Program-made: the position numbers and the translations under genes
In this document: positions 46,885 to 64,000 of the stretch, one piece after another
Position numbering within the stretch: the stretch's first letter is position 1
Layout: the number at the start of each line of letters is the position of its first letter
NCBI RefSeq assembly: GCF_000429325.1
Contig: NZ_AUBQ01000013.1
Coordinates: forward strand, 124,001-188,000
Origin: Fundidesulfovibrio putealis DSM 16056
Lineage (GTDB): Bacteria > Desulfobacterota > Desulfovibrionia > Desulfovibrionales > Desulfovibrionaceae
Reading direction: 5' to 3'
DNA length: 64,000 nucleotides
The notes under the pieces: model-generated
The model's input: the letters and a program-made list of their open reading frames with translations, nothing else
What the model was told of the DNA's origin: nothing
The model's database searches: none

Positions 46885-46917
46885 GGGAGGGCGGGCGCGC
46901 ACTGCGCCCGCCCTCCC
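46885..46917 (+). terminator. GC-rich terminator after the lipoprotein gene
   Basis: GGGAGGGCGGGCGC and its exact complement around a 5-base loop, 30 bases after the stop. Followed by CCATTCATTCTC rather than a pure T-run. Confidence 0.75.
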
Positions 46918-46984
46918 CATTCATTCTCAAGGCGCATTGCCCCGCCCTTGACGCCGCGCCGCCCCGGCCCTAGCATCCGCCGCC

Positions 46985-48190: not shown

Positions 48191-48533
48191 GCGTTACGCA
48201 TGCCTACAAAAACGGAGGGCGGCTCCCGGCAACCGGAAACCGCCCGTTGAAATCAATCAGTTTCTCTTCTTGCAGCAGGCCGACATGATCTTCCGGCCTC
48301 TCCTCCTGATCAGCATCACCGCCATTCTAAGAGAACCAACTCTTTTCCGGGCTAAAAAACATGAGGCTCTTGCAAAACTCATCGCCAGCCGCCACCCGAA
48401 GAAATGGACGAGTCGGTAACAAGTCGGGATAACTGCGGATTCCAAAGGGCGCAGCCCTTTGGCCGCCGGAGGCGTTCCCCAACTGCAAATTTTGCATGTT
48501 CCTCACATGTTCATGTTTTTCAGCACGGCGACA
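48191..48533. other. Convergent intergenic region between MFS gene and nifB
   Basis: About 340 bases. It contains one dispersed hairpin repeat (48437-48473) and otherwise nothing recognised. Confidence 0.5.
48437..48473 (+). repeat. Dispersed hairpin repeat, GGCCGCCGGAGGC family, copy 4
   Basis: GGATT, CCAAAGGGC-GCA-GCCCTTTGG, CCGCCGGAGGC, about 60 bases beyond the nifB 3' end. The stem could act as a terminator for the minus-strand nifENB transcript. Confidence 0.85.
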
Positions 48534-49805
48534 CTAGCACCCCTCGCCGCTGCCGCCTGAGCAGCCCCCGGCCTTGCACCCTCCGCCGCCTTTGGCGCGC
48601 AGGTGGTCGAACTTCTTGGTCTTGAACACGGCGTCCAGCCCCTGGGCGATGAACCCGGACATGGCCACCACCTTCACGCCTTCTTCCTCCAGGATGGCCT
48701 GGGGCGTGTCGCCTACCCCCGACACCAGCACGGCGCGGCAGTCCGACAGGGACTTGGCCAGGGTGTACCAGCGCTTGGGACCGCCGCCGGTGGGCGGCGC
48801 GGGGCGGTCTTCGACCATCTTGTAGCCGCCGCAGCCGTCCTCACCCCAGATCTGAAAGCTCCCGGCCTCGCCCAGGTGCATGTTCACCAGCATGCCCTCC
48901 ATGGTGGCCACGGCCACATACGCGCGGGACTCGTCCACCTCGGGCACGATGGTGGAGCAGGCCTGCATGAGCCCCGAGAAGTCGCGCGAGCAGTCCTTCT
49001 CCAGAAGGCCCACGGCGTCGGCGCGGCAGCGCTGGCAGTGGCGCATCTGGGGAAGATAGGTCTCGGCCATGGCCCGGATGGCTTCCACATCGGCCTTGCT
49101 GGGCTCGGGAACCAGCTCGAACTTGGTTTCCTTGTTGGGGATGAGCGCCATGCAGTTGAGCAGATTCACGCCCATGGACTTCATCTTCTTGGCGATATCC
49201 TCGATGTGGTGGTCGTTGATGCCGGGCATGATGATGGTGTTCACCTTGACGATGATGTCCTTCTCCTTCAAGCGGCGGATGGACTCCTCCTGCTTTTCCA
49301 GCAGGATGCGCGCCGCGTCCGCGCCCCGGTACAGCACCTTGCCCACCCGCGCCCAGGAGTACACCTTGGCCGCGATCTCGGGATCGACCGCGTTCACGGT
49401 CACGGTGACGTGGGACACGCCGATCTCGGCCAGCTCGTCCACGTGCTCGGGCAGCTCCAGCCCGTTGGAGGACAGGCACAGGATCATGTCCGGCCACTTA
49501 TTCTTGATGCGGCGCATGGTCTCGAGCGTTTCCTTGGCGTTGGCCATGGGGTCGCCGGGGCCTGCGATGCCCACCACGGTCAGGCGCGTCTCCACCTTCA
49601 TGACCTCTTCCATGTACTTGATGGCCTGGGCAGGCGAGAGCACGGAGGAGGTGACGCCAGGGCGCGACTCGTTCACGCAGTCGTACTTCCGGTTGCAGTA
49701 GTTGCACTGGATGTTGCACTTGGGCGCGACCGGCAGGTGGATGCGGGCGCAGGAGCCCTTGGCGTCCTTATTGAAACAGGGGTGCTTGGAGAGGTCCATG
49801 GCCAT
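48534..49805 (-). CDS. nifB: Nitrogenase cofactor biosynthesis radical SAM protein NifB
   Basis: 423 residues. Radical SAM motif CNIQCNYC near residue 30, with ESRPGVTS and VGIAGPGDPMAN typical of NifB; it makes NifB-co (8Fe-9S-C), the iron-molybdenum cofactor precursor. A C-terminal NifX/NafY-type domain (about 290-400: YVAVATMEGMLVNMHLGEAG) is fused, as in many NifB proteins. The tail is Gly/Cys-rich (GGGGCKAGGCSGGSGEGC). TAAGGAG precedes two possible ATGs two codons apart. It is the last gene of the nifENB unit. Confidence 0.97.
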   Translation of the reverse strand: MAMDLSKHPCFNKDAKGSCARIHLPVAPKCNIQCNYCNRKYDCVNESRPGVTSSVLSPAQAIKYMEEVMKVETRLTVVGIAGPGDPMANAKETLETMRRIKNKWPDMILCLSSNGLELPEHVDELAEIGVSHVTVTVNAVDPEIAAKVYSWARVGKVLYRGADAARILLEKQEESIRRLKEKDIIVKVNTIIMPGINDHHIEDIAKKMKSMGVNLLNCMALIPNKETKFELVPEPSKADVEAIRAMAETYLPQMRHCQRCRADAVGLLEKDCSRDFSGLMQACSTIVPEVDESRAYVAVATMEGMLVNMHLGEAGSFQIWGEDGCGGYKMVEDRPAPPTGGGPKRWYTLAKSLSDCRAVLVSGVGDTPQAILEEEGVKVVAMSGFIAQGLDAVFKTKKFDHLRAKGGGGCKAGGCSGGSGEGC

Positions 49806-49815
49806 GGGAAACTCC

Positions 49816-51300
49816 TTAAATGTATCCGTACCCGATGTCGGAATCTGACTGTTTCTTTTCGATCATGGCGTTCACCACGCGGTCCAGAAGCTCGTGGGAG
49901 CCCAGATAGCAGAGGTGGCGCAGCCGGTGGCCGCCGAAGCGGTCGTGTATGGGAAAGCCCACCCGGATGAGGGGGACGTTCATCTCGCGGGCCGTGCGGT
50001 AGCCCTTGGAGTGGCCCAGAAAGAAGTCCGGGGCCAGTTCCTTGGCGCGGTCGGCTATGTCGTAGAAGTCCACGCCCTCGGCCACTTCGGGCATCTCGGG
50101 CATCAGCCCCTCGCAGGCTGCCTCGATGGCGGCCTTCAGGCGGCCGGACTTGCCGCCGCCGGCTACCAGCACGGGAATCACGCCGATCTCGGCCATGAAG
50201 GATGTCAGACCAACGATCAGGTCCTCCTCGCCGTAGATCACGCAGCGCTTCTGGGAGACGTACTTGTGGCCGTCCACCAGGGCGTCCACCAGGCGGCCGC
50301 GCTCCAGGGCATGGCGGCGGGGCGTGGGCTTGCAGGACACGGACTCCAGGGCCTGGAAGAAGGCGTCGGATTCGCGAATGCCTATGGGCATTCCCAGGCG
50401 GTGAAGCGCCACGCCGAAGCGCGAGGCCAGAAGCCCGCCAGCGGTGGCCGCCTCGGCGGGCGGCGACAGGGTGGCTCCGAACTCGAACGACGCCGGAGCT
50501 CCGCCCATGGCCTTGATGTCCGCGACGGGGGTGCCGCCGGAGGGCAGCTTTTCGTAATCTTCCAGGGCAGGGCCGTCCAAAGTCTCGGAGTAGTCCGGCA
50601 GGATGGCGGCCTTCAGGCCGAAGCTCGCGAACACGTCTTTCAGGTGCCGGATGTCCTCGCAGGAGACGAAGCCGGGGAAGCAGTTCACCATGTCCGTCTT
50701 CACGTCCGCCGTAGCCAGCTGGTCCGCCACGGCGCGCACGGCGGCGGTGAAGCCCTCCATGTGCGTGCCGGAGTAGCTGGGCGTGGAGACCTGCACCACC
50801 GGAGCCACGTTCAGGTCGCCGAACTCTTTCCTGAATTCCAGCAGGATGCCGGGGACGTCGTCGCCGATGGTCTCGGTGAGGCAGGTGGTGGCCACGCCGA
50901 TCATGCCCGCTCCGTACTTGTCCATCACGGTCAGCAGGCCCTTCTTCAGGTTGGCCGCGCCGCCGTAGATGGCCTGCTTCTCGCCGAGCGAGCTGGAGGC
51001 GATGTCCATGGGTTCGCGAAAATGGCTGATGATGTAGCGGCGCATGTAGGTGGCGCAGCCCTGGGAGCCGTGCAGGAAGGGCACGCCGCCCTCGATGCCC
51101 TTGAACACCAGGGTCGCGCCCAGGGGCTTGCACAGCTTGCAGGCGTTGGTGGTGGACACGAACGGCTCCACCTTGGGCTTTATGGGCTTGGCGTTGGCGG
51201 TCACGGGAGAAGCCTCGGCGACCGCTCCGGCGGCGATATCGCCCGTGAACGCGCACACGGCCTTGTCGCCGGTGTCGGCAAAGTTTGTCGGGCAGCTCAT
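49816..51300 (-). CDS. nifN: Nitrogenase cofactor scaffold subunit NifN
   Basis: 494 residues from an ATG overlapping the nifE stop (ATGA). Homologous to NifK: ACKLCKPLGATLVFKGIEG, HGSQGCATYMRRYIISHFREP and GVATTCLTETIGDD. The first 40 residues are a non-conserved Ala-rich extension. It forms the NifEN complex that matures NifB-co into FeMo-co. nifB follows after 10 bases. Confidence 0.96.
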   Translation of the reverse strand: MSCPTNFADTGDKAVCAFTGDIAAGAVAEASPVTANAKPIKPKVEPFVSTTNACKLCKPLGATLVFKGIEGGVPFLHGSQGCATYMRRYIISHFREPMDIASSSLGEKQAIYGGAANLKKGLLTVMDKYGAGMIGVATTCLTETIGDDVPGILLEFRKEFGDLNVAPVVQVSTPSYSGTHMEGFTAAVRAVADQLATADVKTDMVNCFPGFVSCEDIRHLKDVFASFGLKAAILPDYSETLDGPALEDYEKLPSGGTPVADIKAMGGAPASFEFGATLSPPAEAATAGGLLASRFGVALHRLGMPIGIRESDAFFQALESVSCKPTPRRHALERGRLVDALVDGHKYVSQKRCVIYGEEDLIVGLTSFMAEIGVIPVLVAGGGKSGRLKAAIEAACEGLMPEMPEVAEGVDFYDIADRAKELAPDFFLGHSKGYRTAREMNVPLIRVGFPIHDRFGGHRLRHLCYLGSHELLDRVVNAMIEKKQSDSDIGYGYI

Positions 51301-52694
51301 AACACGCACTCCTTGGGCAGGTCGTCCCGGTTCGCCGCCAGCACCGGGCCAGTGCGCCGGGGCACGAAGCGCCACACCGGGCTCATCACCGTGCGGTGCA
51401 CTTCCAGGGCGAAGTTGTACATGCCCACGAACCCTTCCAGGGCTTCCTTGCGCTCGTGGTTGTGGTCGCAGAATCCCACGCCCAGCTTGTAGGCGATGGG
51501 GCGCTCCTTCACGCCGCCCACGAAGATGTCCACGTCCTTCTCCTTGAGGAAGGCCGACAGCTCCAGGGGGTTGGCGTCGTCCACGATGATGGTGCCGGGG
51601 TCGCAGATGGAGGCAAGTTCCTCGTAATCCTCCGGGGTGCCGGTCTGGGAACCGGCGATCACCACGGACATGCCCAGATGGCGGAAGGCCTTGATCAGCG
51701 AGAAGGCCTTGAACGCGCCGCCCACGTAGATGGCGGCCTTCTTGCCTTCCAGGTCCTTCCGGAAGCCCGCCAGCTTGGGATACAGCACGGCCAGCTCTTC
51801 CTTCACCAGGGCCTGGGTGCGGGCCAGCATGTCCGGGTCCTTGTCCTTGAAGAAGCGGGCCACGGAGTACAGGGCCTCGGCCATGTCCTCGATGCCGAAA
51901 TAGGAGACCTTGACGAAGGGCGTGCCGTATGTGTCCTTCATCATCTTGGCCATATCCATGGTGGAGCCGGAGCACTGCACCACGTTCAGCGCCGCGCCGT
52001 GGGCCTTGGCGATGTCGCCCACGCGGCCATCGCCGGTGATGTTGGCCACGCACTGGATGCCCATGCGCTCGAAGTATTCGCGGATGATCCAGATCTCGCC
52101 CGCCAGGTTGAAGTCGCCCAGGATGTTCAGCGACAAGGGTGAGACGTCCGACGTGTCGCCCGTGCCCACCAGGGTGAACATGGCCTTGCACGCGGCCAGG
52201 TAGCCCTCGCGCTTGTTGCCCTTGAAGCCTTCGGACTGCACCGGGATCACCGGGATGCCCTTCTCGGCGGACACCTTCTTGCAGACGGCCTGGAGGTCGT
52301 CGCCGATGATGCCCACGATGCAGGTGGAGTACACGAAGGCGGCCTTGGGCTGGTGGCGGTCGATCAGTTCGATGAGGGCGGCGTACAGCTTCTTCTCGCC
52401 GCCGAAGATGACGTCGGTCTCCTGGAGATCGGTGGAGAAGGACAGGCGGTGCAGCTCAGGCCCGGAGGACAGCGCGCCCCGGATGTCCCAGGTGTAGGCC
52501 GCGCAGCCGATGGGGCCGTGCACCAGGTGCAGGGCGTCTGCGATGGGATAGAGCACCACCCGCGAGCCGCAGAACACGCAGGCCCTCTGGCTGACCGCGC
52601 CGGCCAGGGAGTCGCGGTTGCAGGCCAGCTTGAAGGGTCCGTCGCCCTTGACGTGGATCTGGTCCCTGCGTTCTTCGAAAATATTGTCAGACAC
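51297..52694 (-). CDS. nifE: Nitrogenase cofactor scaffold subunit NifE
   Basis: 465 residues. NifD-like fold with RACVFCGSRVVLYPIADALHLVHGPIGCAAYTWDIRG (P-cluster-like Cys ligands), YSTCIVGIIGDD, and SYFGIEDMAEAL. Works with NifN as FeMo-co assembly scaffold. The upstream 36-residue peptide gene stops 26 bases before it, so they are co-transcribed. Confidence 0.97.
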   Translation of the reverse strand: MSDNIFEERRDQIHVKGDGPFKLACNRDSLAGAVSQRACVFCGSRVVLYPIADALHLVHGPIGCAAYTWDIRGALSSGPELHRLSFSTDLQETDVIFGGEKKLYAALIELIDRHQPKAAFVYSTCIVGIIGDDLQAVCKKVSAEKGIPVIPVQSEGFKGNKREGYLAACKAMFTLVGTGDTSDVSPLSLNILGDFNLAGEIWIIREYFERMGIQCVANITGDGRVGDIAKAHGAALNVVQCSGSTMDMAKMMKDTYGTPFVKVSYFGIEDMAEALYSVARFFKDKDPDMLARTQALVKEELAVLYPKLAGFRKDLEGKKAAIYVGGAFKAFSLIKAFRHLGMSVVIAGSQTGTPEDYEELASICDPGTIIVDDANPLELSAFLKEKDVDIFVGGVKERPIAYKLGVGFCDHNHERKEALEGFVGMYNFALEVHRTVMSPVWRFVPRRTGPVLAANRDDLPKECVL

Positions 52695-52720
52695 GGTGCG
52701 CCTCTTTTGAAATCAGCGTG

Positions 52721-52831
52721 TTACAGGGCCAGGCTCTTCAGGCAGCAGAAGTAATATCCCGCCTGGATGGCGAGGCTGACGACCAGGGTGGTGAACATTG
52801 CCCGGGCGATGCTGGCGTTGGTAATGTCCAT
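52721..52831 (-). CDS. Nif-associated membrane microprotein (36 aa)
   Basis: 36 residues (starts MDITNASIARAMFTTLVVSL) with an excellent ribosome site AGGAGG five bases before the ATG. One membrane helix (about 12-30) with a C-terminal part YYFCCLKSLAL containing two adjacent cysteines. It is the first gene of the nifENB unit. It resembles the 31-residue peptide at 53415-53510: LF(T/M)-SL-IQ-(A/G), then an aromatic/Cys segment and L-(K/E)-(S/T)-LA. A conserved partner or regulator of the nif apparatus is inferred from position only. Confidence 0.75.
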   Translation of the reverse strand: MDITNASIARAMFTTLVVSLAIQAGYYFCCLKSLAL

Positions 52832-52916
52832 GTCGGCCTCCTGTTATGTCCGGTCCGGGCTGGCTCGTGATTCGCGCGCCCGGCCCTGGGTGAACTGCAC
52901 GTGGTCACAAGCCTAC

Positions 52917-52933
52917 ATCCAATTCCCGTGCCA
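52917..52933 (-). promoter_or_regulatory. Candidate sigma-54 promoter of nif microprotein-nifENB
   Basis: Minus strand TGGCACGGGAATTGGAT: GG and GG doublets spaced by 10 bases, matching the -24/-12 layout (consensus TGGCAC-N5-TTGCA) except that the -12 GC is GG. It lies about 86-102 bases before the 36-residue peptide gene. A weaker Fur-like box (12 of 19) sits just upstream at 52942-52960. Confidence 0.5.
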
Positions 52934-53342
52934 TGCCATAATATAATGATTTTATTGACTTATTATTGAGAAGCGGCGCAATTGCCGCGCGAAAGCATAC
53001 AAAAACGCAAGGACATCTACACAATTGTAGACTCTGCACAGTTCCGTTCGGGATTTGCGGCATCGACACGCGCGAGAGGGCTCCAACAGCGATCATCTGC
53101 CCTGTTCCGGGATGCCCCGAGTCTGGCTGCCGAGGGACTTCACGTGCGCAAGGATGTTCAAGAAGGGTGGAGGGTGTACGTCCATCAACGGGCGCGCCCG
53201 ACTTGTCGAGCGTCGAGCGCAGGCCGGGGTGTGAACCTGAGAGCCACACTGTAAGCAGGGTGGTCCGCAGATGCCCGGAGGTCAAAACCAGTATGCGCCT
53301 CGCGTTCGGGACGCAGAAACAGAGCGTCCCCTGAAAACAGCG

Positions 53343-53375
53343 AGGCCCGGAACCGTTTGGTGCGGTTCCGGGCCT
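53343..53375. terminator. Terminator after the 31-aa microprotein gene
   Basis: AGGCCCGGAACCG-TTTGGTG-CGGTTCCGGGCCT, 13-base perfect stem, 40 bases after the stop of the minus-strand peptide gene. It separates that gene from the nifENB promoter region, making it monocistronic. Confidence 0.8.
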
Positions 53376-53414
53376 GCTGTGGAGGGAAGGGGCGTTAGGG
53401 AATTGCCTGAAAGG

Positions 53415-53510
53415 CTATCTGGCGAGGGTTTCGAGACAGTACAGGTACAGTACGCCCTGGATGCTGAGGCTCATGAACAGGGCCACGGACATTTCCTTGA
53501 ACAGACGCAT
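53415..53510 (-). CDS. Fur-box-linked membrane microprotein (31 aa)
   Basis: 31 residues (MRLFKEMSVALFMSLSIQGV, then LYLYCLETLAR). GGAGG lies 8 bases before the ATG. One membrane helix flanked by charged ends. It has its own promoter overlapped by a Fur-box candidate (53585-53603) and its own terminator, a clear single-gene unit. Paralogue-like similarity to the 36-residue peptide heading nifENB. A role in iron supply or membrane attachment of a nif or fez component is possible but not shown. Confidence 0.75.
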   Translation of the reverse strand: MRLFKEMSVALFMSLSIQGVLYLYCLETLAR

Positions 53511-53576
53511 TGAATAAACCTCCGTAATCTCAAAACCTCCCCGGACGATCCAGGACTTCCCCGGTGGGGTAGGCTT

Positions 53577-53605
53577 CTTTTAGTGAAAATGAGAATCACA
53601 TTCAA
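53577..53605 (-). promoter_or_regulatory. Promoter with overlapping Fur box for the 31-aa gene
   Basis: Minus strand: -35 TTGAAT, 17-base spacer, -10 TAAAAG. The spacer is covered by GAAAATGAGAATCACATTC (53585-53603), 14 of 19 matches to the consensus GATAATGATAATCATTATC. Binding of Fur there would block RNA polymerase. Confidence 0.7.
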
Positions 53606-53860
53606 CAACTATTTTGCGACGACGCACATGATGAACAGACGCCCGCGAACTGCTCCGGGTTGCAGCGCCGACCCCGGCGATATTCACGGCTGAACGATCG
53701 GCCCGACCACGGGGGAAGACCTATCGGCCCCGTGTGACGGATGCGGGACCGTCCCGCGACAGATCAAGGATGACTGAGGGATTGGAAAGAAACGCCCGCG
53801 TAACCGGCGCGAGGGGGAAAAAGGAGGGAAACGGGCTCGGGCGGGAAGAGGCTCCAGCCG

Positions 53861-54592
53861 CTATTCAGGAGAGAAATACACCGCAGTGTTGCGGCCCTGG
53901 GTCTTGGCGTCGCCAAGGGCGGCCTGGGCCAGGCGCACCAGAACCATGGGCGCGTCCCCGCGCGTGGGCGTCACGGTGGAGTACCCGATGCTCACGGTGA
54001 CCACCCCGCCGTGAGGGGATTCCAGGTGCGAGATCGCAAGCCCCGCGACCTCCTCCAGCATGCGCCCGGCCACCACAGCGGCCCCCTGGGCGTCCGCGCC
54101 GGGCAGGAGCGCCGCGAAGGTGTCGCCCTCCATGCGCCCCATGGCGTCCACCTCGCGGTACAGACTGCGCATGACCGCCTGGGCCACGGATTTCAGGCAG
54201 TCGTCTGCGGTCAGGGAGCCGTAGACGTCATTGTAGGCCCGGAAGTTGTCCACGTTGACCACCAGCAGCGACACGGGCGTTCCTTCCCGCTGGGCCTGAG
54301 CCCAGTCGCGAGAGAGGAGCTTCTCGAAGGCGCGGCGGTTCAGGGTCCCGGTCAGGCCGTCCACCTGGGAGAGCTGCGCCACCTGCGACATGGCCGCCTC
54401 CAGGTCCATCTGCACCTGGTTGGCCAGATCCGCCACGCGCCCGGCGCGCCCCAGAAGCAGCTCGTACTCGGCCAGAAGCTCCTGAAAAGACGCCGCCGGG
54501 ACTGCGTCCCCAGGCTCAGGCGCGCCAAGCGCCTGCCTGGCCTTCTCGACGACCTGGCGTTCCTTTTCAAACAGAGGGGCTATCTGGTCCAT
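53861..54592 (-). CDS. Soluble degenerate GGDEF protein
   Basis: 243 residues from the ATG at 54592. A coiled-coil N-terminus (about 1-85) and a GGDEF domain starting VDGLTGTLNRRAFEKLL. The active-site loop reads RMEGDTF instead of RGGDEF: both a glycine and the catalytic Glu are lost, so cyclase activity is unlikely. It could bind c-di-GMP or GTP as an effector, but no RxxD inhibitory site was recognised. Oriented with the nif microprotein genes but separated from them by about 350 bases. Confidence 0.82.
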   Translation of the reverse strand: MDQIAPLFEKERQVVEKARQALGAPEPGDAVPAASFQELLAEYELLLGRAGRVADLANQVQMDLEAAMSQVAQLSQVDGLTGTLNRRAFEKLLSRDWAQAQREGTPVSLLVVNVDNFRAYNDVYGSLTADDCLKSVAQAVMRSLYREVDAMGRMEGDTFAALLPGADAQGAAVVAGRMLEEVAGLAISHLESPHGGVVTVSIGYSTVTPTRGDAPMVLVRLAQAALGDAKTQGRNTAVYFSPE

Positions 54593-54747
54593 GGATGGGC
54601 TTCTCCCGGCATCACGTGATGACGGCAGGATAAACGCGCGACGCCTGGGCGTCCAGCCTTGATACGCCCGGTAAGGACATAACCCGGCGCCTGATCTCAT
54701 CGAGTGCCACAAGCCCAGATACCCACTTTACGACACGTGCTGACACT

Positions 54748-54766
54748 GATAACGAGAATCAAAATC
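54748..54766 (+). promoter_or_regulatory. Fur-box candidate before the HTH/fez region
   Basis: GATAACGAGAATCAAAATC matches 15 of 19 positions of GATAATGATAATCATTATC. It overlaps a plausible -10 (TAACGA) 17 bases from TTTACG and lies 15 bases before the HTH gene start. Confidence 0.75.
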
Positions 54767-54781
54767 GCGAAGGTTCTGTGC

Positions 54782-55435
54782 ATGACCACCAATCCGTACC
54801 CGAAATTTCCTCGCCCCGTTGCCCGCAAGAATCCGTACGCCGCCCACGCCAAGATCGACCAGGCGATGCTTCTTGAGATGGCCAGCGCCTTCGTCAGGGG
54901 CGAGACCGCAAGCCAGGCCGCCAAGGCGCTCGGCGTCAACCGCAACACGGCCAACCGCTACTACCAGATCTTCCGGGACACCCTGGCCCGCCAGAAAGAC
55001 CCGGCCCGGTGCGATGCGCCCAAGGACCCGCCGATCATCGGCCTGTTCCTGACCGCCTCCTCGGTCCAGGCCCGCCTAGTGCCTGAAAAGCACAGGGAGC
55101 AGGCCCTGTGCGCCCTGCGCGACAGGAGCGGCGGCCAGAAAGCCATGGCCGTGGCCTCCGGGCCGGACTGGCCGGGCTACGACGCCCTGGGCGATCCGGG
55201 AGACGGGCGCTTCCTCCTGATGCCCGGCTGCCTGGTGGGCGCCGCCGGGCAGGAGCGCCTCACGCGGCACTGGCAGGGGCTGCGCGAACGCTTGTGCCGT
55301 TGCCGGGGCATCCCCCGCTCCAACTATCCCCACCACCTGATGGCCTGCGACATGGCCCAAAGCCTGGGACCGGATCAGATGCTCGCCAAACTGCTCGCGG
55401 CCCTTAAGGATCCGCCTGGAATCTCATCAGAATGA
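54782..55435 (+). CDS. Helix-turn-helix protein (transposase-N-terminus-like), probable regulator of fez genes
   Basis: 217 residues. The N-terminal part (about 20-60) has a helix-turn-helix AFVRGETASQAAKALGVNRNTANRYYQIF like those at the start of IS1595-type transposases, but the catalytic DDE domain is not recognisable. The C-terminal 130 residues are unfamiliar (FLTASSVQARLVPEKHRE, FLLMPGCLVGAAG). It is preceded by a strong Fur-box candidate and followed, 76 bases later, by fezABC on the same strand. A domesticated DNA-binding protein controlling this locus is a reasonable inference; direct evidence is lacking. No inverted repeats of an insertion sequence were seen. Confidence 0.65.
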   Translation: MTTNPYPKFPRPVARKNPYAAHAKIDQAMLLEMASAFVRGETASQAAKALGVNRNTANRYYQIFRDTLARQKDPARCDAPKDPPIIGLFLTASSVQARLVPEKHREQALCALRDRSGGQKAMAVASGPDWPGYDALGDPGDGRFLLMPGCLVGAAGQERLTRHWQGLRERLCRCRGIPRSNYPHHLMACDMAQSLGPDQMLAKLLAALKDPPGISSE

Positions 55436-55453
55436 CTTTTTCGTTTCATTTCG

Positions 55454-55485
55454 TTGACAATTCGGCTTCAAGCAAGCACATGCTT
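55454..55485 (+). promoter_or_regulatory. Candidate promoter/operator of fezABC
   Basis: TTGACA (55454-55459) and, 14 bases later, the dyad AAGCA-CA-TGCTT (55474-55485) in the expected -10 zone. AGGAGG (55501-55506) follows as the fezA ribosome site. The dyad could be bound by the upstream HTH protein. Confidence 0.45.
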
Positions 55486-55511
55486 AAAGTCAATCATCTC
55501 AGGAGGACATC

Positions 55512-55784
55512 ATGAACACCAATTCCAAAGGTGCTCTGCTTTTCGTTGGCGGCGCCGCCCTTGGCGCTCTGGCCGTTTACGCGCTGACCCGCGGCAACTC
55601 CAACCTGAAGCCCCTGCTGGCCGATGTGATGGCTGGCGGACTCAACCTGAAGGACAAGCTCATGGGAGTGGTCGATCAGGCCAAGGAGAACATGGAAGAC
55701 CTGATGGCCGAGGCCGAGCACGCCCGCAAGGGACGTGACGCCGCAGCGACCGCAGCCCCTGCCGAGGAGAGCAAGCAGTCGTGA
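55512..55784 (+). CDS. fezA: FezA-like small membrane protein (YtxH-like)
   Basis: 90 residues. N-terminal Gly-rich membrane helix (ALLFVGGAALGALAVYAL, about 8-25) and an amphipathic helical tail (GVVDQAKENMEDLMAEAEH). Resembles YtxH-like proteins and the small membrane protein that precedes the ATPase in ferrosome (fez) clusters. AGGAGG lies just before the ATG. Its stop overlaps the GTG start of the ATPase (GTGA). Assignment to fezA depends on the neighbouring genes. Confidence 0.7.
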   Translation: MNTNSKGALLFVGGAALGALAVYALTRGNSNLKPLLADVMAGGLNLKDKLMGVVDQAKENMEDLMAEAEHARKGRDAAATAAPAEESKQS

Positions 55785-58018
55785 CCCCACGCGTCGTACA
55801 CGATATGCCCGGCAGGCTGAGGCTGCGCTATGCGCCTCCCGCCCTCGCCGGGCAATTGGCTTCACGCCTGGAAAAGGCGCACGCCCTTAAGGGCGTGGAC
55901 TCGGTCTCCGTGAACCCGCGCAGCGGCTCGGTGCTGGTCCATTATGCCCCCCAGGCGCACCTGCGCGAGGCCATCCTGGGCATCTTCTCCGAGAGCCTCC
56001 CCGCAGGCGCGGCCGCTCCTTCCGGGCTTCTGAAAGAAGGGGTCCGGAAGCGGCGCGGGCGCGCAGCCTCCAAAGAGCCGCAGGCGCAAGGCCCCGTCAC
56101 GGGCGAACTCCTGCCCCCGGCCCACGCCGACCCCGCCCTCCATCACCGGGGCGGCCCCTGCACAGCCCCAGTCAGCGAGGATGAACACAAAAGCCCGAGC
56201 CTGCTGGGCATCCTGGCCCCGGTCATCATGCGCCCTATCCTGCCTCCCGTGTTCCAGCTGGCCCTGGCCTTCAGGAGCTCCCTGCCCCGCCTGTGGCGCG
56301 GGCTGGTGTCGCTCACCTCGGGCAAGCTCTCGGTGGACGTGCTGGATGCAACGGCCCTGGCCATCTGCTTCATACGCCGCGACTTCAGGTCGCTTGGCAC
56401 CATCACCCTGCTTCTTTCGGCCGGCGAGTTCCTGGAGCACTGGACCCGCAAGCGCTCCGAGGAGAGCCTGGCCGCCACCCTGGCTTCCCAGACCGTGTGG
56501 GCCTGGGTGAAGAGGGGGTCCGAGGAAGAACAGGTGGACGCGAACACCGTGAAGCCCGGCGAGCTGGTGGTCATCCGCCAGGGCGCGGTGGCTCCCGTGG
56601 ACGGCGTCGTGGAGGAGGGCGAAGCCCTGGTGAACCAGAGCGCCATGACCGGCGAGGTCAGCGGCGTGCCCAAGCGCCCCGGCTCCGCCGTGTTCGCGGG
56701 CACCGTGGTGGAGGAAGGCGAGGTGGTGGTCAAGGCCACCGGCTCCGCAGACGCCACCCGCTGGCGGCGCATGCTGTCCCTGGTGGAGCAGGCCGAGAAG
56801 AGCAAGGCCGGGGTGCAGAGCCAGGCCGAGAAGCTGGCCGGGAACCTGGTCCCCTTCTCGCTGGGTCTCTCCGGCGCGGTCTACGCGGCAACGCGCGACC
56901 CCAGGCGGGCCGCCTCCGTGCTGCTGGTGGACTACTCCTGCGCCATCAAGCTGGCCACGCCCCTGGCCGTGCTGGCTGCCATGCGCCAGATGGCCTCCGA
57001 AGGGGTGGTGGTCAAGGGCGGGCAGCCGCTGGAGAACCTGGCCAAGGCCGACGTGTTCGTGTTCGACAAAACCGGCACCCTGACCATGGCCGAACCCACC
57101 GTGCGCGACGTCATCCCCTTCTCAGGCTTTTCCCGCGAGGAAGTGCTGCGCGTGGCCGCCTGCCTGGAGGAACACTTCCCACACCCCGTGGCCCGCGCGG
57201 TGGTGCAACAGGCCAAGATCGAGGACATCATCCACCAGGAGGAGCACGCCCGCGTGGAATACGTGGCCGCCCACGGCGTGGCCAGCTGGCTCAAGGGCAA
57301 GCGCGTCATGCTCGGCAGCCGCCACTTCATCCACGAGGACGAGAAAGTTCCCCTGGGCGACGCCGCCGGGATCGCCTCGGCCCTGGCCGAGGAAGGGCAC
57401 TCGCTCCTGTATCTGGCCATCGGCGACGAACTGGCCGGAATCATCACCCTGGACGACCCGCTGCGCCCCGAAGCCGCCCTGGCCATCCGCCAGCTGCGCG
57501 ATTCGGGCATCAAGCGCATCATCATGCTCACCGGCGACCTGGACGGCATGGCCGCGCGCATCGCCAAGCAGATCGGCATCACCGAGTGGATCGCCCAGGT
57601 TCTGCCCGACGAGAAGCACCGGGTCATCGAGAAGCTCCTGGCCGAGGGCCACACCGTGGCCATGGTGGGCGACGGCATGAACGACGCCCCGGCCCTGGCC
57701 CGCGCCTCGGTGGGCATCTCCATGCACCAGGGAGCGGACGTGACCCGAGAGGTGGCCGACGTGGTGCTCACCACCGGCGACCTGACCGCCCTGGCCCGCA
57801 GCCGCGCCCTGGCGCAGGCGGCTCTCAAGCGCATCAAGTACAACTACCTGCTCATCGTGAGCGTGAACACGGTCCTTCTGGCCGGGGGCCTCATCGGCCG
57901 GCTCACGCCGCAGCTGTCGGCCCTGATGCACAACGGCGCGACAATCGCCGCCGCAGTCAACGCGCTTCGCCCGCTTTCCGCGCGGCGAGCCCTGCCGCGA
58001 GGCGGCAACAAGGAGTAG
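55781..58018 (+). CDS. fezB: P1B-6-type ATPase FezB (ferrosome metal pump)
   Basis: 745 residues from a GTG overlapping fezA. N-terminus carries the R-x-R-x-R motif in MPGRLRLRY (about residues 9-17) reported for ferrosome ATPases, then an HMA-like fold. P-type motifs: actuator SAMTGEV, phosphorylation site DKTGTLT (D429), and VGDGMNDAPALA. In the membrane metal site the usual CPC is replaced by SCA (S386-C387-A388), the P1B-6 signature. By analogy with Desulfovibrio magneticus and other bacteria it should load iron into ferrosome vesicles (iron-phosphate storage). Overlaps and tight spacing with fezA and fezC support one operon. Confidence 0.85.
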   Translation: MTPRVVHDMPGRLRLRYAPPALAGQLASRLEKAHALKGVDSVSVNPRSGSVLVHYAPQAHLREAILGIFSESLPAGAAAPSGLLKEGVRKRRGRAASKEPQAQGPVTGELLPPAHADPALHHRGGPCTAPVSEDEHKSPSLLGILAPVIMRPILPPVFQLALAFRSSLPRLWRGLVSLTSGKLSVDVLDATALAICFIRRDFRSLGTITLLLSAGEFLEHWTRKRSEESLAATLASQTVWAWVKRGSEEEQVDANTVKPGELVVIRQGAVAPVDGVVEEGEALVNQSAMTGEVSGVPKRPGSAVFAGTVVEEGEVVVKATGSADATRWRRMLSLVEQAEKSKAGVQSQAEKLAGNLVPFSLGLSGAVYAATRDPRRAASVLLVDYSCAIKLATPLAVLAAMRQMASEGVVVKGGQPLENLAKADVFVFDKTGTLTMAEPTVRDVIPFSGFSREEVLRVAACLEEHFPHPVARAVVQQAKIEDIIHQEEHARVEYVAAHGVASWLKGKRVMLGSRHFIHEDEKVPLGDAAGIASALAEEGHSLLYLAIGDELAGIITLDDPLRPEAALAIRQLRDSGIKRIIMLTGDLDGMAARIAKQIGITEWIAQVLPDEKHRVIEKLLAEGHTVAMVGDGMNDAPALARASVGISMHQGADVTREVADVVLTTGDLTALARSRALAQAALKRIKYNYLLIVSVNTVLLAGGLIGRLTPQLSALMHNGATIAAAVNALRPLSARRALPRGGNKE

Positions 58019-58022
58019 CGAC

Positions 58023-58481
58023 ATGCTTGAAAGCGTTCTTCCCGGACGTATCCGCGCACGGCTGCCCCAGGGCCTCCCCGCCGAGACACAGGCCGCCATC
58101 CGGGCGGCCCTGGACAAGGCTGCGGCTGGCTCCTGCATGGAGTACAACCCGCGCAGCGGCAGCCTGCTGGTGAGCTGGCAGCCCGGCCCCAAACGCGACG
58201 TGGCCGTGCTCAAGGTGGTGGAGGCGAACATGTCGCCCGAGGCGGCAAAACCCGCCGGTTCCATCTGTTCGGGAATGGCGCGCATGTCGGAGCTGGCCAA
58301 TGGCGTGAACATCCCCTGGCCCGCCATGAAGACCGTGAAAAAGGGCATGCTCCTGAGCCTGGGCGCGGCACTGACTGCCCTGGTCTTCAAGAGCGAGCGA
58401 ACGCACTACTTGGCCGGGGGAGTTTTCGTGGCGCTTCTGTTGCGGCACACTCACGTGTACCGCAAGCGCATGTTCAAGTAA
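58023..58481 (+). CDS. fezC: FezC-like R-x-R-x-R domain membrane protein
   Basis: 152 residues. N-terminal domain opens with VLPGRIRARLP, the same R-x-R-x-R motif as FezB, followed by a sequence resembling the ATPase N-terminal fold (MEYNPRSGSLLVSW matches VNPRSGSVLVHY). C-terminal membrane hairpin (about 104-145: MLLSLGAALTALVF, AGGVFVALLL). It probably associates with FezB in the ferrosome membrane. AAGGAG is well placed; the ATG is 4 bases after the fezB stop. Terminator follows at once. Confidence 0.78.
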   Translation: MLESVLPGRIRARLPQGLPAETQAAIRAALDKAAAGSCMEYNPRSGSLLVSWQPGPKRDVAVLKVVEANMSPEAAKPAGSICSGMARMSELANGVNIPWPAMKTVKKGMLLSLGAALTALVFKSERTHYLAGGVFVALLLRHTHVYRKRMFK

Positions 58482-58485
58482 TCGG

Positions 58486-58518
58486 AAGGCCGCCCGAATG
58501 GTGAATCCGGGCGGCCTT
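58486..58518. terminator. Terminator of fezABC; left copy of a 33-bp inverted repeat
   Basis: AAGGCCGCCCG, 11-base loop, CGGGCGGCCTT, 4 bases after fezC. Its complement is identical to 60603-60635 except for one base. Confidence 0.85.
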
Positions 58519-58776
58519 ATCCGCCTCCGCCTCGCCGCAGCCACCCAGGCAATTGCCGGGCGTGTTTGCTTTTCATTCTTTCTCGCCAACAAGTACCCGT
58601 CATTTCGACGCCCTTTCTGAAACGCATCCTTCTTTTTCGCTTCTTGTGTTGTCAGGAACACACCGCCCTGCTATCGGTTACCTTCACTCTCTATCGCGCA
58701 AGCACGAATCCCCATGGCCTCACCAGGGGATTCCCATCATGGACACACCCCGGAGGACCGGGCGCGGAGGTTTCGT

Positions 58777-60594
58777 ATGTTGTCAGTCAGGAACAAGCTG
58801 ATCGCTGGTTTTTCGACCCTTATCCTCATCATTGTCGCGAGCAACCTGCTGAGCGGCATCTATTCCGGTCGCCAGGCAGACGCAATGGAGGAACTCATGA
58901 CCGAGGACCTCCCGGTCCTGAACACCACCCAGGACATCGTGATGCTCGGGCAGAGCTTCAGGCGTTCAGAAAAAGACATCCTGCTCAACATCGGCAACCC
59001 CGGCAAGCAGCAGACCTACCTGAACCAGCTGCGCGCCGACTCGGACAAGCTGACGAAGGCGGCAACCGAGCTGGCGGCCCACGTGGCCGCCGACAGGGAA
59101 CTGAGCGAATCAGACAGGAACACCGCGCGGGCCATGCTGGACAACTTCAGGACGTATGACGCGTTCGTCACGAAGTATCTCGAGGAACTCATCTCCGGCA
59201 AGAAAGGCCAGATTACGGCTGAGCAGGCCAACGAAGCCATCGCGACCCGAAAGGACTCCTTCCACACCTACGAGAAATCCCTCGCGGCCATTCAGGAGGC
59301 CGGGCGCAGGATGGTGGCGGAAAAAGGCGTCACCATGGCCGCAGTCTCATCCTCCATGCGCACCATGCAGGTCGTGTCCCTGTTCGGCGGGTTGGTCATC
59401 GGCATCCTGAGCGGCGTTCTCTGCATCCTGTCCATATCCAGGCCCATGAAGAGGATCATCGGATTTTCCAATGCGGTAAGCTCCGGCGACCTCGACGCCC
59501 GCCTGGACCGCCAGGGCGACGACGAGTTCTCGGTGCTTGGCGGCAACATCGAAACCATGGTCGCCACGCTGAAATCAAAAATCGCCGAGGCCGACCGCAA
59601 GACCACCGAGGCCGCCGACGAGGCCCGCCGCGCCAAGGAAGCCACCGAGCAGGCAGAGGCCGCAACCCTGATGGCCGAGAACGCCAGGTCCGAAGGCATG
59701 GCCGAAGCAGCCGGAAACATCGAGAAGGTGGTCTCTGTTGTAGCCGCCACCACCGACACCCTGCTCTCCCTGGTGGAGCAGGCCCGCAACGGCAGCCAGA
59801 TGCAGTCCGCACGCGTGCGCGACACGGTGTCCGCCATGGATCACGTGAACGCCACAGTGGGGGCCGTGGCCGCCAACGCCGCCGAAGCGGCCGACTCCAC
59901 CGACAAGGCCAGGACCCAGGCAGGCGCTGGCGCGGATCTTGTCACCAGAGCCTCGGACAGCATCGCCAAGGTGCGTGAACAGGCCTTGTCCCTCAAGGGT
60001 GACATGGGCGAGCTGGGCAAGCAGGCCGAAGGCATCGGGCGCATCATGAACGTGATCTCCGACATCGCCGACCAGACCAACCTTCTGGCGCTGAACGCCG
60101 CCATCGAGGCCGCACGCGCGGGCGACGCCGGGCGTGGCTTCGCGGTGGTCGCCGACGAGGTGCGCAAGCTTGCCGAAAAGACCATGCACGCCACCCGCGA
60201 AGTGGGCTCAGCCATCCAGGACATCCAGCAGGGCACCAGCAAGAGCATCGCCAGCGTGGACGCCGCCGCGCAGACCATCGACACGGCCAACGAACTGGCC
60301 GGGGAGTCGGGACGGGCGCTGGCGGGGATACTCGAACAGGTCCGGCTGGTGGAGACGCAGGTGCGGGCCATCGCCAGGGCCTCGGAGGAGCAATCCTCGG
60401 CCAGCCGCGAGATAAACCGCAGCATCGACGACATCGCCCAGATCACCTCGGAGACCGAGGACAACATGCGACGCTCCGCCGAAGCCGTGGAGGACATGTC
60501 CGAACAGGCCCGGGTGCTCAGCGACCTGGTGGTGGCCATGAACTCGCACGGCGGCGCGCAGGCGGCGCTGCCCCCCGGCAGACGGGGGCGCTAA
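58777..60594 (+). CDS. Methyl-accepting chemotaxis protein
   Basis: 605 residues from the ATG at 58777 (GCGGAGG six bases upstream). TM1 about 10-30, a 4-helix-bundle sensor (about 35-190, [21 protein letters not shown] typical of 4HB_MCP), TM2 about 195-215, HAMP, then the signalling domain with [38 protein letters not shown]. No C-terminal CheR-docking pentapeptide. Not linked to the Wsp-like operon. It is bracketed by two almost identical inverted repeats that also act as terminators. Confidence 0.92.
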
Positions 60595-60602
60595 TTAAGT
60601 AG

Positions 60603-60637
60603 AAGGCCGCCCGGATTCACCATCCGGGCGGCCTTTT
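60603..60637 (+). terminator. Terminator of the MCP gene; right copy of a 33-bp inverted repeat
   Basis: AAGGCCGCCCGGAT-TCACC-ATCCGGGCGGCCTTTTT, 9 bases after the stop, with a T-run. Complementary to 58486-58518 with one mismatch. Confidence 0.93.
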
Positions 60638-60676
60638 TGTATAAGACGCAGCGGCCCGTGCCTCGCGGTCCCCGTG

Positions 60677-60919
60677 CTACGCTTTTTCCTCGTCCGAGGC
60701 GTCCGCATCGGGGTCTGACGGGACGTATTCCAGGATGTCCCCTGGCTGGCAGTCCAGAAAACGGCATATGGCCTCCAGGGTGGAGAACCGGATGGCCTTG
60801 GCCTTGCCCGTCTTCAAGATGGACAGGTTCTGGGCGGTGATGCCCACCGCCTCTGCCAGGGCCTTGGAGGAGGTCTTCCTCCTGGCCAGCATGACGTCCA
60901 GATTCACAAGTATGCCCAC
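60677..60919 (-). CDS. XRE/Cro-type small regulator (YozG-like)
   Basis: 80 residues from a GTG. A single helix-turn-helix: KTSSKALAEAVGITAQNLSILKTGKAKAIRFSTLEAICRFLDCQPGDILEY, the pattern of YozG-like XRE regulators. An acidic tail follows. It lies 8 bases downstream of a DUF2975 membrane protein gene, a common pairing in bacteria where the two may form a regulator/membrane-sensor unit. Start codon is inferred from frame and length. Confidence 0.88.
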   Translation of the reverse strand: MGILVNLDVMLARRKTSSKALAEAVGITAQNLSILKTGKAKAIRFSTLEAICRFLDCQPGDILEYVPSDPDADASDEEKA

Positions 60920-60927
60920 GAAACCGC

Positions 60928-61461
60928 CTAGATGGTCAAAGCCCGCTCTTCCTCGATGCCCCGCCCCTCGTCCATCACCCAGGAGATGACCAGGGCGACC
61001 GTCCCCCCGAACAGGGCCGCCAACTCCACGGACCCAAACGCGACCACCACGTGCCGTTGCCCTTCAGGCATCCCGACCGACAGCGCCAGGGACAGCAGGG
61101 GGGTATGCAGGAATATCGCCCCAGCCCAGTACAGGAGCGTGCGTCCCAGGCTGCGATAGCAGGCCACGTTGCGCTGGCTGAAGATTTCCCCGGCGGCGTA
61201 CAGCCCGAACAGTTCGCGCAGGGTCTTGAAGCCGTACATGGCGACCCCCGCCGGAAGCATGGCAGAGAGGAAGCACAGGGCGCGGTTGAACGCTGACAGC
61301 TCCATGCGGCCCGGAACCGGCAGCTGGGTTTTCATGACGTCCGGAAAACTGTTGAAAAGGAACCAGTACGCGGCGCAACAGAGGGGCGTCGCCCAGAGCA
61401 GAAGCGCCGAGGCCTTCGCGAGGATGGCGCTCATCCGTTTGATGCGTGTCAGGTTGTCCAT
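60928..61461 (-). CDS. DUF2975 membrane protein
   Basis: 177 residues with four membrane segments (about 14-34, 60-80, 108-128, 140-162). Contains the DUF2975 core (LRELFGLYAAGEIFSQRNVACYRSLGRTLLYWA). AGAGGTG precedes the ATG. Transcribed with the adjacent XRE regulator; function of the family is unknown. Confidence 0.85.
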   Translation of the reverse strand: MDNLTRIKRMSAILAKASALLLWATPLCCAAYWFLFNSFPDVMKTQLPVPGRMELSAFNRALCFLSAMLPAGVAMYGFKTLRELFGLYAAGEIFSQRNVACYRSLGRTLLYWAGAIFLHTPLLSLALSVGMPEGQRHVVVAFGSVELAALFGGTVALVISWVMDEGRGIEEERALTI

Positions 61462-61482
61462 GGGGTCACCTCTGTTGCCGGG

Positions 61483-62109
61483 TCAGGAGCCGCTGCCGTT
61501 CAGGACAGGAGCGCCGGTGGCCGTGCTGCTGAAAAGAGCGCTGAGATCGGCCCCGAAGTCCTCGCCGAGTTCACGCGCGGTATGCGCGCTGAATGCGCCG
61601 CTCTTCTTATGGCCCCGGTGGGCATCCAGGTATAGCGCGCCGGTCCGGGCGTCAATTACCCGCGCATGGTAGGCGAAGTCCGTGCCTGTAGACCAGTATG
61701 GTGGAAGCAGTGATATGGTCAGCTCGCCGCCGTACCCCAGCACCCGCACCAGCACCACGGTGTCCGCTCCGGCGTCCAGGGCGGCGGCTGCCAGCTCCCC
61801 GTCGCTGGCGGCCATGAGGGAGCGCCCCCCCAACCGCGAGGAAAGCGCGTCCGGCCCGACAAGCTCCACTCCCTGCCTGGCGGCAACCGCCTGCTCCACC
61901 AGGGTGGTGATCCTACCTATCTTCTGGCGCTCATCTTCTGTTTGCGCCGGATAGTCGACCTCGCACACCAGGATGGTTTTGCCCCAGTTGTTACCCTCAG
62001 TTGCCGATCCCCTGGCAACCAGATTCCTGGCCTTGTTGACCGCGCATCCAGACACAAACACTAGTGATACCAGCATGATCGCGGTAAGCGAAAGAGTGAG
62101 CGCTCGCAT
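61483..62109 (-). CDS. Outer-membrane-type lipoprotein
   Basis: 208 residues from the ATG at 62109 (MRALTLSL). Lipobox VSGC near residue 22. The mature part has an alpha/beta pattern (TILVCEVDYPAQTEDERQKIGRITTLVEQAV, ALDAGADTVVLVRVLGYGGELTISLLPPYWS, VIDARTGALYLDAHRG) like envelope lipoproteins of the GNA1162/PenA-leader or TolB-N type that bind or measure something in the periplasm. Family not assigned. It is immediately upstream of the DUF2975-XRE pair (21-base gap), probably one operon. Confidence 0.72.
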   Translation of the reverse strand: MRALTLSLTAIMLVSLVFVSGCAVNKARNLVARGSATEGNNWGKTILVCEVDYPAQTEDERQKIGRITTLVEQAVAARQGVELVGPDALSSRLGGRSLMAASDGELAAAALDAGADTVVLVRVLGYGGELTISLLPPYWSTGTDFAYHARVIDARTGALYLDAHRGHKKSGAFSAHTARELGEDFGADLSALFSSTATGAPVLNGSGS

Positions 62110-62323
62110 GATTCGTCCTCCGATCGTGGTTGCGCCGGGAACCCCGGCGGCCGCCCCCAGCCGAGGCAGGCAACGTCGGACTAAACAATAAAAAATGATT
62201 GTGCAACAATAACTTTTTATTGTTTTGGCTTCCACTTGATTCCAAAACCGGAATGGCCGCCCAGGCGATTAACCCGGACGGCCACCCAAGGCAGACAGAG
62301 GCAGGCAGGAGACAGTTTTCGTC

Positions 62324-62626
62324 TTACAGCAAGAGGTCTTCGGCGGCCTGGCCATTCTCCAGGGCGTCGAGGATCTCGTCGACTTTTTCTTCGCTATCGA
62401 TTTTTCCGTACCACCAGGCTTCGGGATAGACAATCATCACCGGGCCGTCCTCGCACTGTTTCAGGCAGCCCGAACCCGTGATCAGGACGTCCAGCCCGCG
62501 ATCCAGGATTTCGGTCTCCATGTACTGGAGGAGGCTTCCGCCCTGCTTGAAGCAGACGCCCTTTGGTTCGCCCTTGGCGCGGAAGCTGTTGCAGACCAAT
62601 ATGTGATGCTTCGGCTTGTTGACCAT
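62324..62626 (-). CDS. Thioredoxin-fold 2Fe-2S ferredoxin of the nif cluster
   Basis: 100 residues from the ATG at 62626 (GGAG 9 bases upstream). Four cysteines in the order expected for the thioredoxin-like 2Fe-2S family: VCNSF, GVCFKQGG, GSGCLKQCEDGP. YPEAWWYGK is a family feature. Such ferredoxins commonly follow nifK in Desulfovibrio-type nif clusters and may donate electrons or protect nitrogenase. Same strand as nifK, 430 bases downstream across two repeat elements. Confidence 0.9.
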   Translation of the reverse strand: MVNKPKHHILVCNSFRAKGEPKGVCFKQGGSLLQYMETEILDRGLDVLITGSGCLKQCEDGPVMIVYPEAWWYGKIDSEEKVDEILDALENGQAAEDLLL

Positions 62627-62659
62627 TTCGTGAACTCCATTTGGCTTCTTGATGAAGAT

Positions 62660-62697
62660 GGGGCTCCGCCCCATACCCGGCCAGGGCTCTGCCCTGG
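62660..62697. repeat. Double-hairpin repeat element
   Basis: GGGGC-TCC-GCCCC (62660-62672) and CCAGGGC-TCT-GCCCTGG (62681-62697) joined by ATACCCGG, followed by ACCC. Such twin GC hairpins are typical of dispersed intergenic repeats in many bacterial genomes. Only one copy lies in this window. Confidence 0.75.
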
Positions 62698-62975
62698 ACC
62701 CTCAGTTGGCTTCGCGACCGGGTGCTGGGTGCGGCGGCTGGGGGCTGTCCCGTCCGTGCCCTGCGCGGCGGGCTAGAACCGATGCGAAGACGATTCGTCG
62801 CCCGTCGCGCAGGGCACGACCGTGACAACCCCCAACCCCGCCGAAACTCCAGTCAGTCGCGTTCGAACACGAGGCTGATATACTGTCGGTTCACTCCAGC
62901 AGCGCAAGTAACCACTGTTCCAGAACTTCATTCCAACGCGCTCGAATGCGAAGCTACCTAAAAGTTTTTGAAGGA

Positions 62976-63028
62976 GTGTCCAGAGAGGAAACTTTTTTCA
63001 AAAAGTTTCCTCTCTGGCCGCCGGAGGC
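62976..63028 (+). repeat. Dispersed hairpin repeat, GGCCGCCGGAGGC family, copy 5 (long stem)
   Basis: A 17-base perfect stem (62980-62996 with 63001-63017, AAAGTTTCC core) then CCGCCGGAGGC. It lies 28 bases after nifK and could end or process the nif transcript. Confidence 0.85.
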
Positions 63029-63055
63029 ATTCTCCTGCCTCTCCTCGTTGTATCC

Positions 63056-64000
63056 CTAGTACACCAACTCGAAGGAGCTTTCCGGCTCGTCGCGGTCGCG
63101 CCGGGTCAGGAAGAGGTCGAGCATCTTTTCCATCAGTCGCAGGGCTCCCTTGTATCCCACGGTGGGGAAGTAGGTGTGTCCCATGCGGTCCACGATGGGG
63201 AATCCGTGGCGCAGGTGCGGGATGTCCTCGTCACGGGCGATGTACTTGCAGTAGGTGTTGCCGATGATGAGGTCCACGGGCTCCTGCTTGATCCACTGGT
63301 GGAGGATGAACATGTCGCCGGGGCACTTCACCTTGGTGACGCCTTCAGCAGGGGTTCCCTTGATGATTTCGTTGATGGTGCGTTCGAACTTGTTGCCGGG
63401 GGTTCCCGAGACCACGTAGGCCGGGATCATGTCCAGCTCGATGCACAGCTTGGTAAGGCCGATCAGCTGATCGGGGTCTCCGGCCAGGGCCACGCGCTTG
63501 CCGAAGAAGTACTGGTTGTAGTCGCTCATGACGTCCACGACCTGTCCGCGCTCGAAGTCGATGATCTCGGGCACGGCCTTGCCGGACATCTTGTGCAGGG
63601 CCATGATGTAGTCGTCGGTGGCTCCGAGGCTTATGGGCAGGCCCATGATCTGGCAGGGGACCTTGTGCTCGGAGTCCAGCATCTTGGCCGCGTGGGCGGT
63701 GGCCCACTCGCCCAGGCCGATGGTGCCGATGGCATCGCCGGAGGAGACGATGTCCGCGACCTTGGCGCCGCCCTTGGGGTACATCTCGAACTTGCCGGTA
63801 AGCGGCGCGTTCAGCACGCCCGAGGTGTCGGGGAAGACGTTGGCGGCAACGCCCATCTCCAGGGCCAGGCGCTTGATCTCCGCCATGTCGGCGGGCTCGC
63901 AGAAGCCGGGGATGATGTTTAACTTGCCGTTCTTCTCGCCGGTGGACTTGGCCAGGTTCTTGACCATGCCGCCCACCATGTTGGCGTAGCCCGTGACGTG
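63056..64000 (-). CDS. nifK: Nitrogenase MoFe protein beta chain NifK (partial, 5' end outside window)
   Basis: The C-terminal 314 codons are in the window; reading frame is open to the right edge (…VTGYANMVGGMVKNLAK). NifK-specific stretches: KLNIIPGF, FPDTSGVLNAPLTGKFEMYPKGG, GLGEWATAHAAKMLDSEHKVPC, GDPDQLIGL, and the C-terminal HLRHGFPIVDRMGHTYFPTVGYKGALRLMEKMLD. It carries P-cluster ligands in its missing N-terminal part and, with NifD, forms the N2-reducing enzyme. The gene ends 28 bases before a dispersed repeat. Confidence 0.97.
   Translation of the reverse strand, partial: HVTGYANMVGGMVKNLAKSTGEKNGKLNIIPGFCEPADMAEIKRLALEMGVAANVFPDTSGVLNAPLTGKFEMYPKGGAKVADIVSSGDAIGTIGLGEWATAHAAKMLDSEHKVPCQIMGLPISLGATDDYIMALHKMSGKAVPEIIDFERGQVVDVMSDYNQYFFGKRVALAGDPDQLIGLTKLCIELDMIPAYVVSGTPGNKFERTINEIIKGTPAEGVTKVKCPGDMFILHQWIKQEPVDLIIGNTYCKYIARDEDIPHLRHGFPIVDRMGHTYFPTVGYKGALRLMEKMLDLFLTRRDRDEPESSFELVY

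Follow-up and report, generated by a model that had tools for sequence, protein, structure and literature searches.

Why would a predicted ferrosome operon lie in the middle of a nif gene cluster, and does it serve nitrogenase there? The question is raised by a 64,000-nucleotide stretch of DNA from Fundidesulfovibrio putealis DSM 16056 (G000:C6:124001-188000, within a 4.7-Mb genome), which we will call the window. An earlier note on this DNA proposed that three of its genes form a fezABC operon and that their location links iron storage to the iron demand of nitrogenase.

The three genes are intact and contiguous, and they follow each other on the plus strand as tightly as the note had claimed. 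The first, fezA (55512..55784), encodes a 90-residue, DUF6110-like product that is rich in Gly and Ala and has a single N-terminal membrane segment (judged by eye), in line with the small Gly-rich membrane protein of the note. It overlaps by 4 bp with fezB (55781..58018), which encodes a P1B-type ATPase of 745 residues with SCA at residues 386-388 and the N-terminal R-x-R-x-R motif, here RLRLR, at residues 12-16. After a gap of 4 bp comes fezC (58023..58481), and its 152-residue product was rightly described as a second R-x-R-x-R protein with a hairpin: GRIRAR is found at residues 8-13, and an HMA-like domain is followed by a two-helix hairpin, present in the structure model, with His128 and His142. 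This arrangement is conserved. The likeness to the Desulfovibrio magneticus cluster also holds, since gene content and order equal those at locus L172 of genome G287, which we take to be D. magneticus RS-1. That locus encodes an 86-residue small protein, an ATPase and a 146-residue GRIRFR protein, and it shares with the window the domain make-up, the His pair of FezC and a Fur-like box 5' of fezA. It differs from the window in that its fez genes are 1.2 Mb from nifE, are followed by an HD-domain gene and have no HTH gene in front of them that we could see. The comparison supports the view that the three genes are an ordinary fezABC operon, orthologous to that of RS-1, from which ferrosome granules are predicted.

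P1B ATPases in general export metals, and general heavy-metal ATPase models match FezB well (TIGR01525, 494.7 bits). The gene might then encode a plain exporter for the detoxification of iron or another metal, with no organelle involved. Several observations speak against such a role. FezB carries SCA, which we take to be the mark of P1B-6, and not CPC or TPC. Among the FezB-like rows, 60 of 62 have SCA; none of the four other P1B ATPases of the same genome that were compared has it, three showing CPC and one TPC at that site. The N-terminal R-x-R-x-R motif is a hallmark of ferrosome ATPases, and the form R-x-[RH]-x-[RHK] was found in 52 of 59 full-length rows (seven lack it). FezB is the sole match in its own genome at 1e-120, as it is with the family profile at 1e-130. 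When compared with a known FezB, as the note had advised, it is 46% identical to that of RS-1 over 745 alignment positions. In a 64-row tree, the four other P1B ATPases stand apart from a clade of 60 FezB-like rows (support 100/100). The FezB proteins of RS-1 and Clostridioides difficile are in this clade, as is the window protein, and the window's group and the RS-1 group are sisters (95/86). FezB is therefore inside the ferrosome clade. The tree covers 40 of the 80 named loci without the short rows L025 and L052, its outgroup consists of the four rows only, and it carries warnings of long branches and uneven composition, which count against our preferred explanation. The SCA motif, the place in the FezB clade and the fezA and fezC partners in the RS-1 order make a plain exporter very improbable.

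Two loci in the tree deserve mention for themselves. L120 (G033:C41) has three FezB-like ATPases in tandem and L121 (G029:C91) has two, with small membrane proteins alongside; those of these ATPases that the tree includes form the deepest branch among the FezB-like rows.

Window FezA scores 24.7 bits against DUF6110 (E 2.5e-5), below the cut-off of 26, which counts against the assignment; its identity to RS-1 FezA is 39.5% (z 25). In C. difficile, the neighbour of fezB is a DUF6110 protein at 1.5e-23. The fezAB genes of that organism (locus L047, named by homology) resemble those of the window in having a DUF6110 protein followed by an SCA ATPase of the same clade, 37% identical to window FezB over the matched part. 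They differ in lacking fezC, because no same-strand open reading frame of at least 55 codons occurs in the next 1.5 kb. According to a review, both FezA and FezB are required in C. difficile and are repressed by Fur (PMC12574912).

The identity of the third gene was open to doubt. PMC10979944 reports that FezC is a cytochrome of the heme-b kind whose His residues are conserved, and that it is related to DUF4405. For window FezC no Pfam family scores at E 1, and its identity to RS-1 FezC is only 26% (z 11); both facts count against its being FezC. Among 13 homologues, picked because fezC was readable beside fezB, Pfam found HMA_2 in 11 and DUF4405 weakly in five (best E 0.088). Because of the published relation of FezC to DUF4405, we at first suspected that the gene encodes some other protein. 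This was rejected, since RS-1 FezC aligns with it and the His pair is common to both: G8, R9, R11, H128, G132 and H142 are invariant in all 13 homologues, with GRxR kept. The AlphaFold2 model (mean pLDDT 81, pTM 0.49) consists of an HMA-like domain and two helices, with both His on the second helix. Foldseek found nothing for it at E 0.001 or better, and its weak matches include HMA-type copper chaperones. H128 and H142 may be regarded as putative heme ligands.

What of the surroundings? As the note had it, the operon lies within a nif cluster, and it interrupts that cluster. It is flanked by genes for NifB, NifN and NifE to one side and for a ferredoxin-like protein and NifK to the other. The names nifB and nifE rest on scores above curated cut-offs, nifN and nifK on order and similarity. 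The edges of the interruption are nifE (51297..52694, minus strand; TIGR01283, 618 bits) and the 2Fe-2S ferredoxin-like gene fdx (62324..62674, minus strand), whose NCBIfam matches are below cut-off and whose orthologue stands beside nifK in four relatives, with 86-88% identity. The gap between fdx and nifE is 9,629 bp in the window, where it holds fez, a GGDEF gene and a transposase-derived gene, as against 166-1800 bp at 8 of 10 nif loci of other genera, a selection from the loci listed; at the remaining two (RS-1 and G082) the stretch yielded no fdx. This difference indicates an insertion of a block of DNA that took place in an ancestor of the genus.

Genomes G001 and G004 read nifB-nifN-nifE, GGDEF, HTH-fezABC, fdx, nifK. 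In the window this order recurs with four additional genes between fezC and fdx (58714-62235), for an MCP, a Cro-type HTH protein, a DUF2975 protein and a hypothetical protein. All of these but the MCP gene are also found at this junction in G005 (L171). In G002 the left side agrees as far as fezAB, after which the order is broken and fezC was not found. G003 has the HTH and GGDEF genes and, at the expected place, two pieces of fezC in different frames (E 1.3e-5); it has no fezAB at the locus and no FezB elsewhere at 1e-120. This fragment shows that fez was lost in G003. G005 has no fez genes there, a frameshifted HTH gene and no FezB elsewhere at 1e-120, which may be a second loss or the original state. 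A further genome, G006 (66% complete), gave neither NifE nor FezB matches and was left out of the counts. Of the six genus members in which the locus can be read (counting the window), four thus have fez at the nif place, one has a broken fezC fragment and one has none.

Such decay in relatives could mean that the window operon is itself degraded or inactive and simply carried along in the cluster. The intact genes and kept ATPase motifs of the window do not agree with this, nor does the finding that dN is well below dS for fezA and for fezB, in 3/3 pairs each. We regard a dead operon as extremely improbable here.

Could the operon instead be a ferrosome dedicated to nitrogenase, recruited into the nif cluster to buffer iron for its assembly and co-expressed or co-required with it? 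In favour of this, all four fez-bearing genus members have fez here: three have it between nifE and fdx, and G002, with a rearrangement on the other side, has it beside GGDEF and nifE. This position is, however, inherited, so that finding it in four species is no independent sign of function, and two genus members have nif without intact fez. Independent recurrence of the linkage was looked for elsewhere in the family, where FezB-profile matches occur at 1e-130 in 187 of 288 genomes and NifE matches at 1e-170 in 112 of 288. The candidate was rejected, as NifB, N, E, K or fdx was absent near fez at all 80 named loci, with flanks of up to 10 kb per side and often less. In 17 genomes outside the genus the best listed FezB and NifE are on one contig, at distances from 41 kb to more than 1 Mb, and among the matches listed no nif gene is within 40 kb of fez; in the nearest case (41 kb, G257) the FezB and NifE rows each have an internal stop. 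In the remaining genomes with both, the two are on separate contigs or FezB falls outside the best matches listed. FezB-like plasmid records from Azospirillum and Cereibacter (two of 20) have iron-uptake neighbours in both. Literature searches combining ferrosome with nitrogenase, nif or Desulfovibrio nitrogen fixation, a scope outside which the original ferrosome gene-cluster surveys fell, found no report of the linkage.

Regulatory signals bear on the same question. Fez is transcribed in the direction opposite to nif. Between the GGDEF and HTH genes lies a Fur-like box of two overlapping 17-mers (54746..54768, no strand assigned; 14.5 and 10.8 bits), the stronger of which is CTGATAACGAGAATCAA at 54746, as scored with a profile built from 40 Desulfovibrio Fur sites published in PMC545781. 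The box is conserved in 6/6 genomes, weak in the window and strong in the relatives (G004 23.4 bits, G001 22.7, G003 22.7, G005 20.4, G002 17.7), and RS-1 has the Fur-like TTGACAACGAGAATCAA 5' of fezA (15.7 bits). In simulated controls, which concern the window site only, 14.5 bits was reached in 1 of 2000 190-bp stretches and in 15 of 40 64-kb sequences, which counts against that site taken by itself. A scan of four genomes found no comparable site between the HTH gene and fezA, where the best score was 4.8 bits and the spacer is not conserved. High-scoring matches 5' of the C. difficile genes were set aside, the DNA being AT-rich. A search of five genomes for a published Fur-site string gave no match, and the Fur-boxed P-type ATPase that PMC545781 reports for D. 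vulgaris is therefore not tied to fezB. In the GGDEF-HTH spacer of 6/6 genomes we also noticed an element resembling TTCTCATCAAGTG (window 54694-54706), about 30-45 bp from the Fur-like box.

Candidate signals of nitrogen control lie elsewhere in the window. No sigma54-like element was found near the HTH or fez genes in the window or its relatives, nor was a nif-type promoter made of a sigma54 element and a NifA site found for fez. The window has seven TGT-N10-ACA matches, a number at chance, and the two nearest to fez lie 3' of fezC (58645-58662). A sigma54-like element with one mismatch is found at 52920..52934 (minus strand) 5' of mp1-nifE, where it recurs at the same place in 6/6 genomes with 0-1 mismatch; its count in the window, two against 3.3 expected, is not above chance. 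Rfam gave no match in 46000-64000. No sigma70-like promoter was found in 52600-58800, which counts against our explanation. Taken together, these signals point to iron rather than nitrogen as the putative control of fez, by way of a predicted Fur box.

The gene in front of fezA (54782..55435, plus strand, 76 bp away) encodes a helix-turn-helix protein derived from an IS1595-type transposase. Five homologues aligned with two IS1595-type (ISXO2-like) transposases over 190 columns (hhalign 99.4%, E 3.9e-21), and in the joint alignment PF12762 matches three of seven members, presumably including the two transposases. Unlike active IS1595 transposases, the protein does not have the DDE/N catalytic residues: the second Asp and the Glu are replaced in 5/5 homologues and the DESY segment around the first Asp is lost, with Asp at the first position in the window only. 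The second Asp is also missing from one of the two reference transposases. The structure model is poor (pLDDT 61.5). For this gene dN is below dS in 10/10 pairs, with weaker constraint than in fezA and fezB. No plus-strand terminator-like site separates it from fezA, and it is possibly the first gene of the fez operon. A plausible role for its product is to bind DNA as a local regulator. The gene is intact in G003, which lost fezAB, and so has no strict tie to fez. Other transposase-like HTH proteins occur at L160, L167 and L169 in related genomes, seemingly without catalytic residues (by eye).

Divergent from the HTH gene is a GGDEF (diguanylate cyclase) gene (53861..54592, minus strand; PF00990, E 7.9e-37; start set at an internal ATG), syntenic in all six genus members in which the locus can be read, counting the window. 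At fez loci of the RS-1 type an HD-domain gene follows fez, as seen at L172 (11403-12095, by Pfam) and at L174-L178 (by eye); window fez faces the GGDEF gene instead. The predicted Desulfovibrio Fur regulon of PMC545781 includes HD and GGDEF genes.

Upstream of nifE there are also two paralogous microproteins, mp1 (52721..52831, minus strand, 36 residues) and mp2 (53415..53510, minus strand, 31 residues, one membrane segment by eye). The twins have 31-41 residues and the pattern SLxIQxxxYxxCLxxLA. Among the 288 family genomes, six have the mp2 family, all of them in this genus and at this place; mp1 is in 5/6, not found in G004. They are kept where fez is lost or absent. Overlapping Fur-like boxes 5' of mp2 (53583..53605, no strand assigned; 20.0 and 17.3 bits) have the top scores of the window, and sites of 18.9-23.3 bits occur there in 4/6 genus members, with none in G001 and G003. 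Read-through from this box into nifE was considered and rejected because of a 13-pair terminator-like hairpin 3' of mp2.

A Fur-boxed microprotein beside nifE in four of six genomes again favours a ferrosome dedicated to nitrogenase. Given the shared descent, the Fur-like control of fez and the loci elsewhere, we consider that reading unlikely. A more elaborate suggestion can be made as well: fez, the Fur-boxed microprotein, the c-di-GMP enzyme and a tamed transposase regulator might form an iron-response module in the nif operon that couples iron storage to nitrogenase assembly. If true, nitrogen fixation would here be served by an organelle through a genetically hard-wired link; we judge this decidedly unlikely. 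Of the link that the earlier note drew to nitrogenase, the location is real and genus-wide. The functional part amounts to genomic association only, given the Fur-like site, the opposite strand and the two of six members without intact fez. We claim no nitrogenase-specific role.

Very probably, then, the locus is a fezABC operon of the RS-1 type, putatively Fur-controlled and predicted to form ferrosomes, in a block inserted into nif. Following published ferrosome work, Fur would repress the operon when iron is ample; starvation would relieve this, and FezA, FezB and FezC would build membrane vesicles. Ferrosomes of RS-1 form on iron return, according to PMC12748827. At that stage FezB would pump ferrous iron into the vesicles, where FezC, as a heme cytochrome, may adjust its redox state for storage with phosphate. 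As to history, the block of fez, GGDEF and transposase-derived HTH genes entered between fdx and nifE, and fez was later lost in one species, leaving a fragment, and is missing from another.

The operon itself is of a known kind, a standard ferrosome operon, and its inherited position in nif is the unusual part. Ferritin-family matches occur in 6/6 genus members, so that ferrosomes would not be the sole iron store. Few organisms have so far been studied for ferrosomes. A genus with fez inside nif, together with two species that have nif and no intact fez, offers a ready comparison for organelle support of nitrogenase, and makes ferrosome service to nitrogenase a testable idea.
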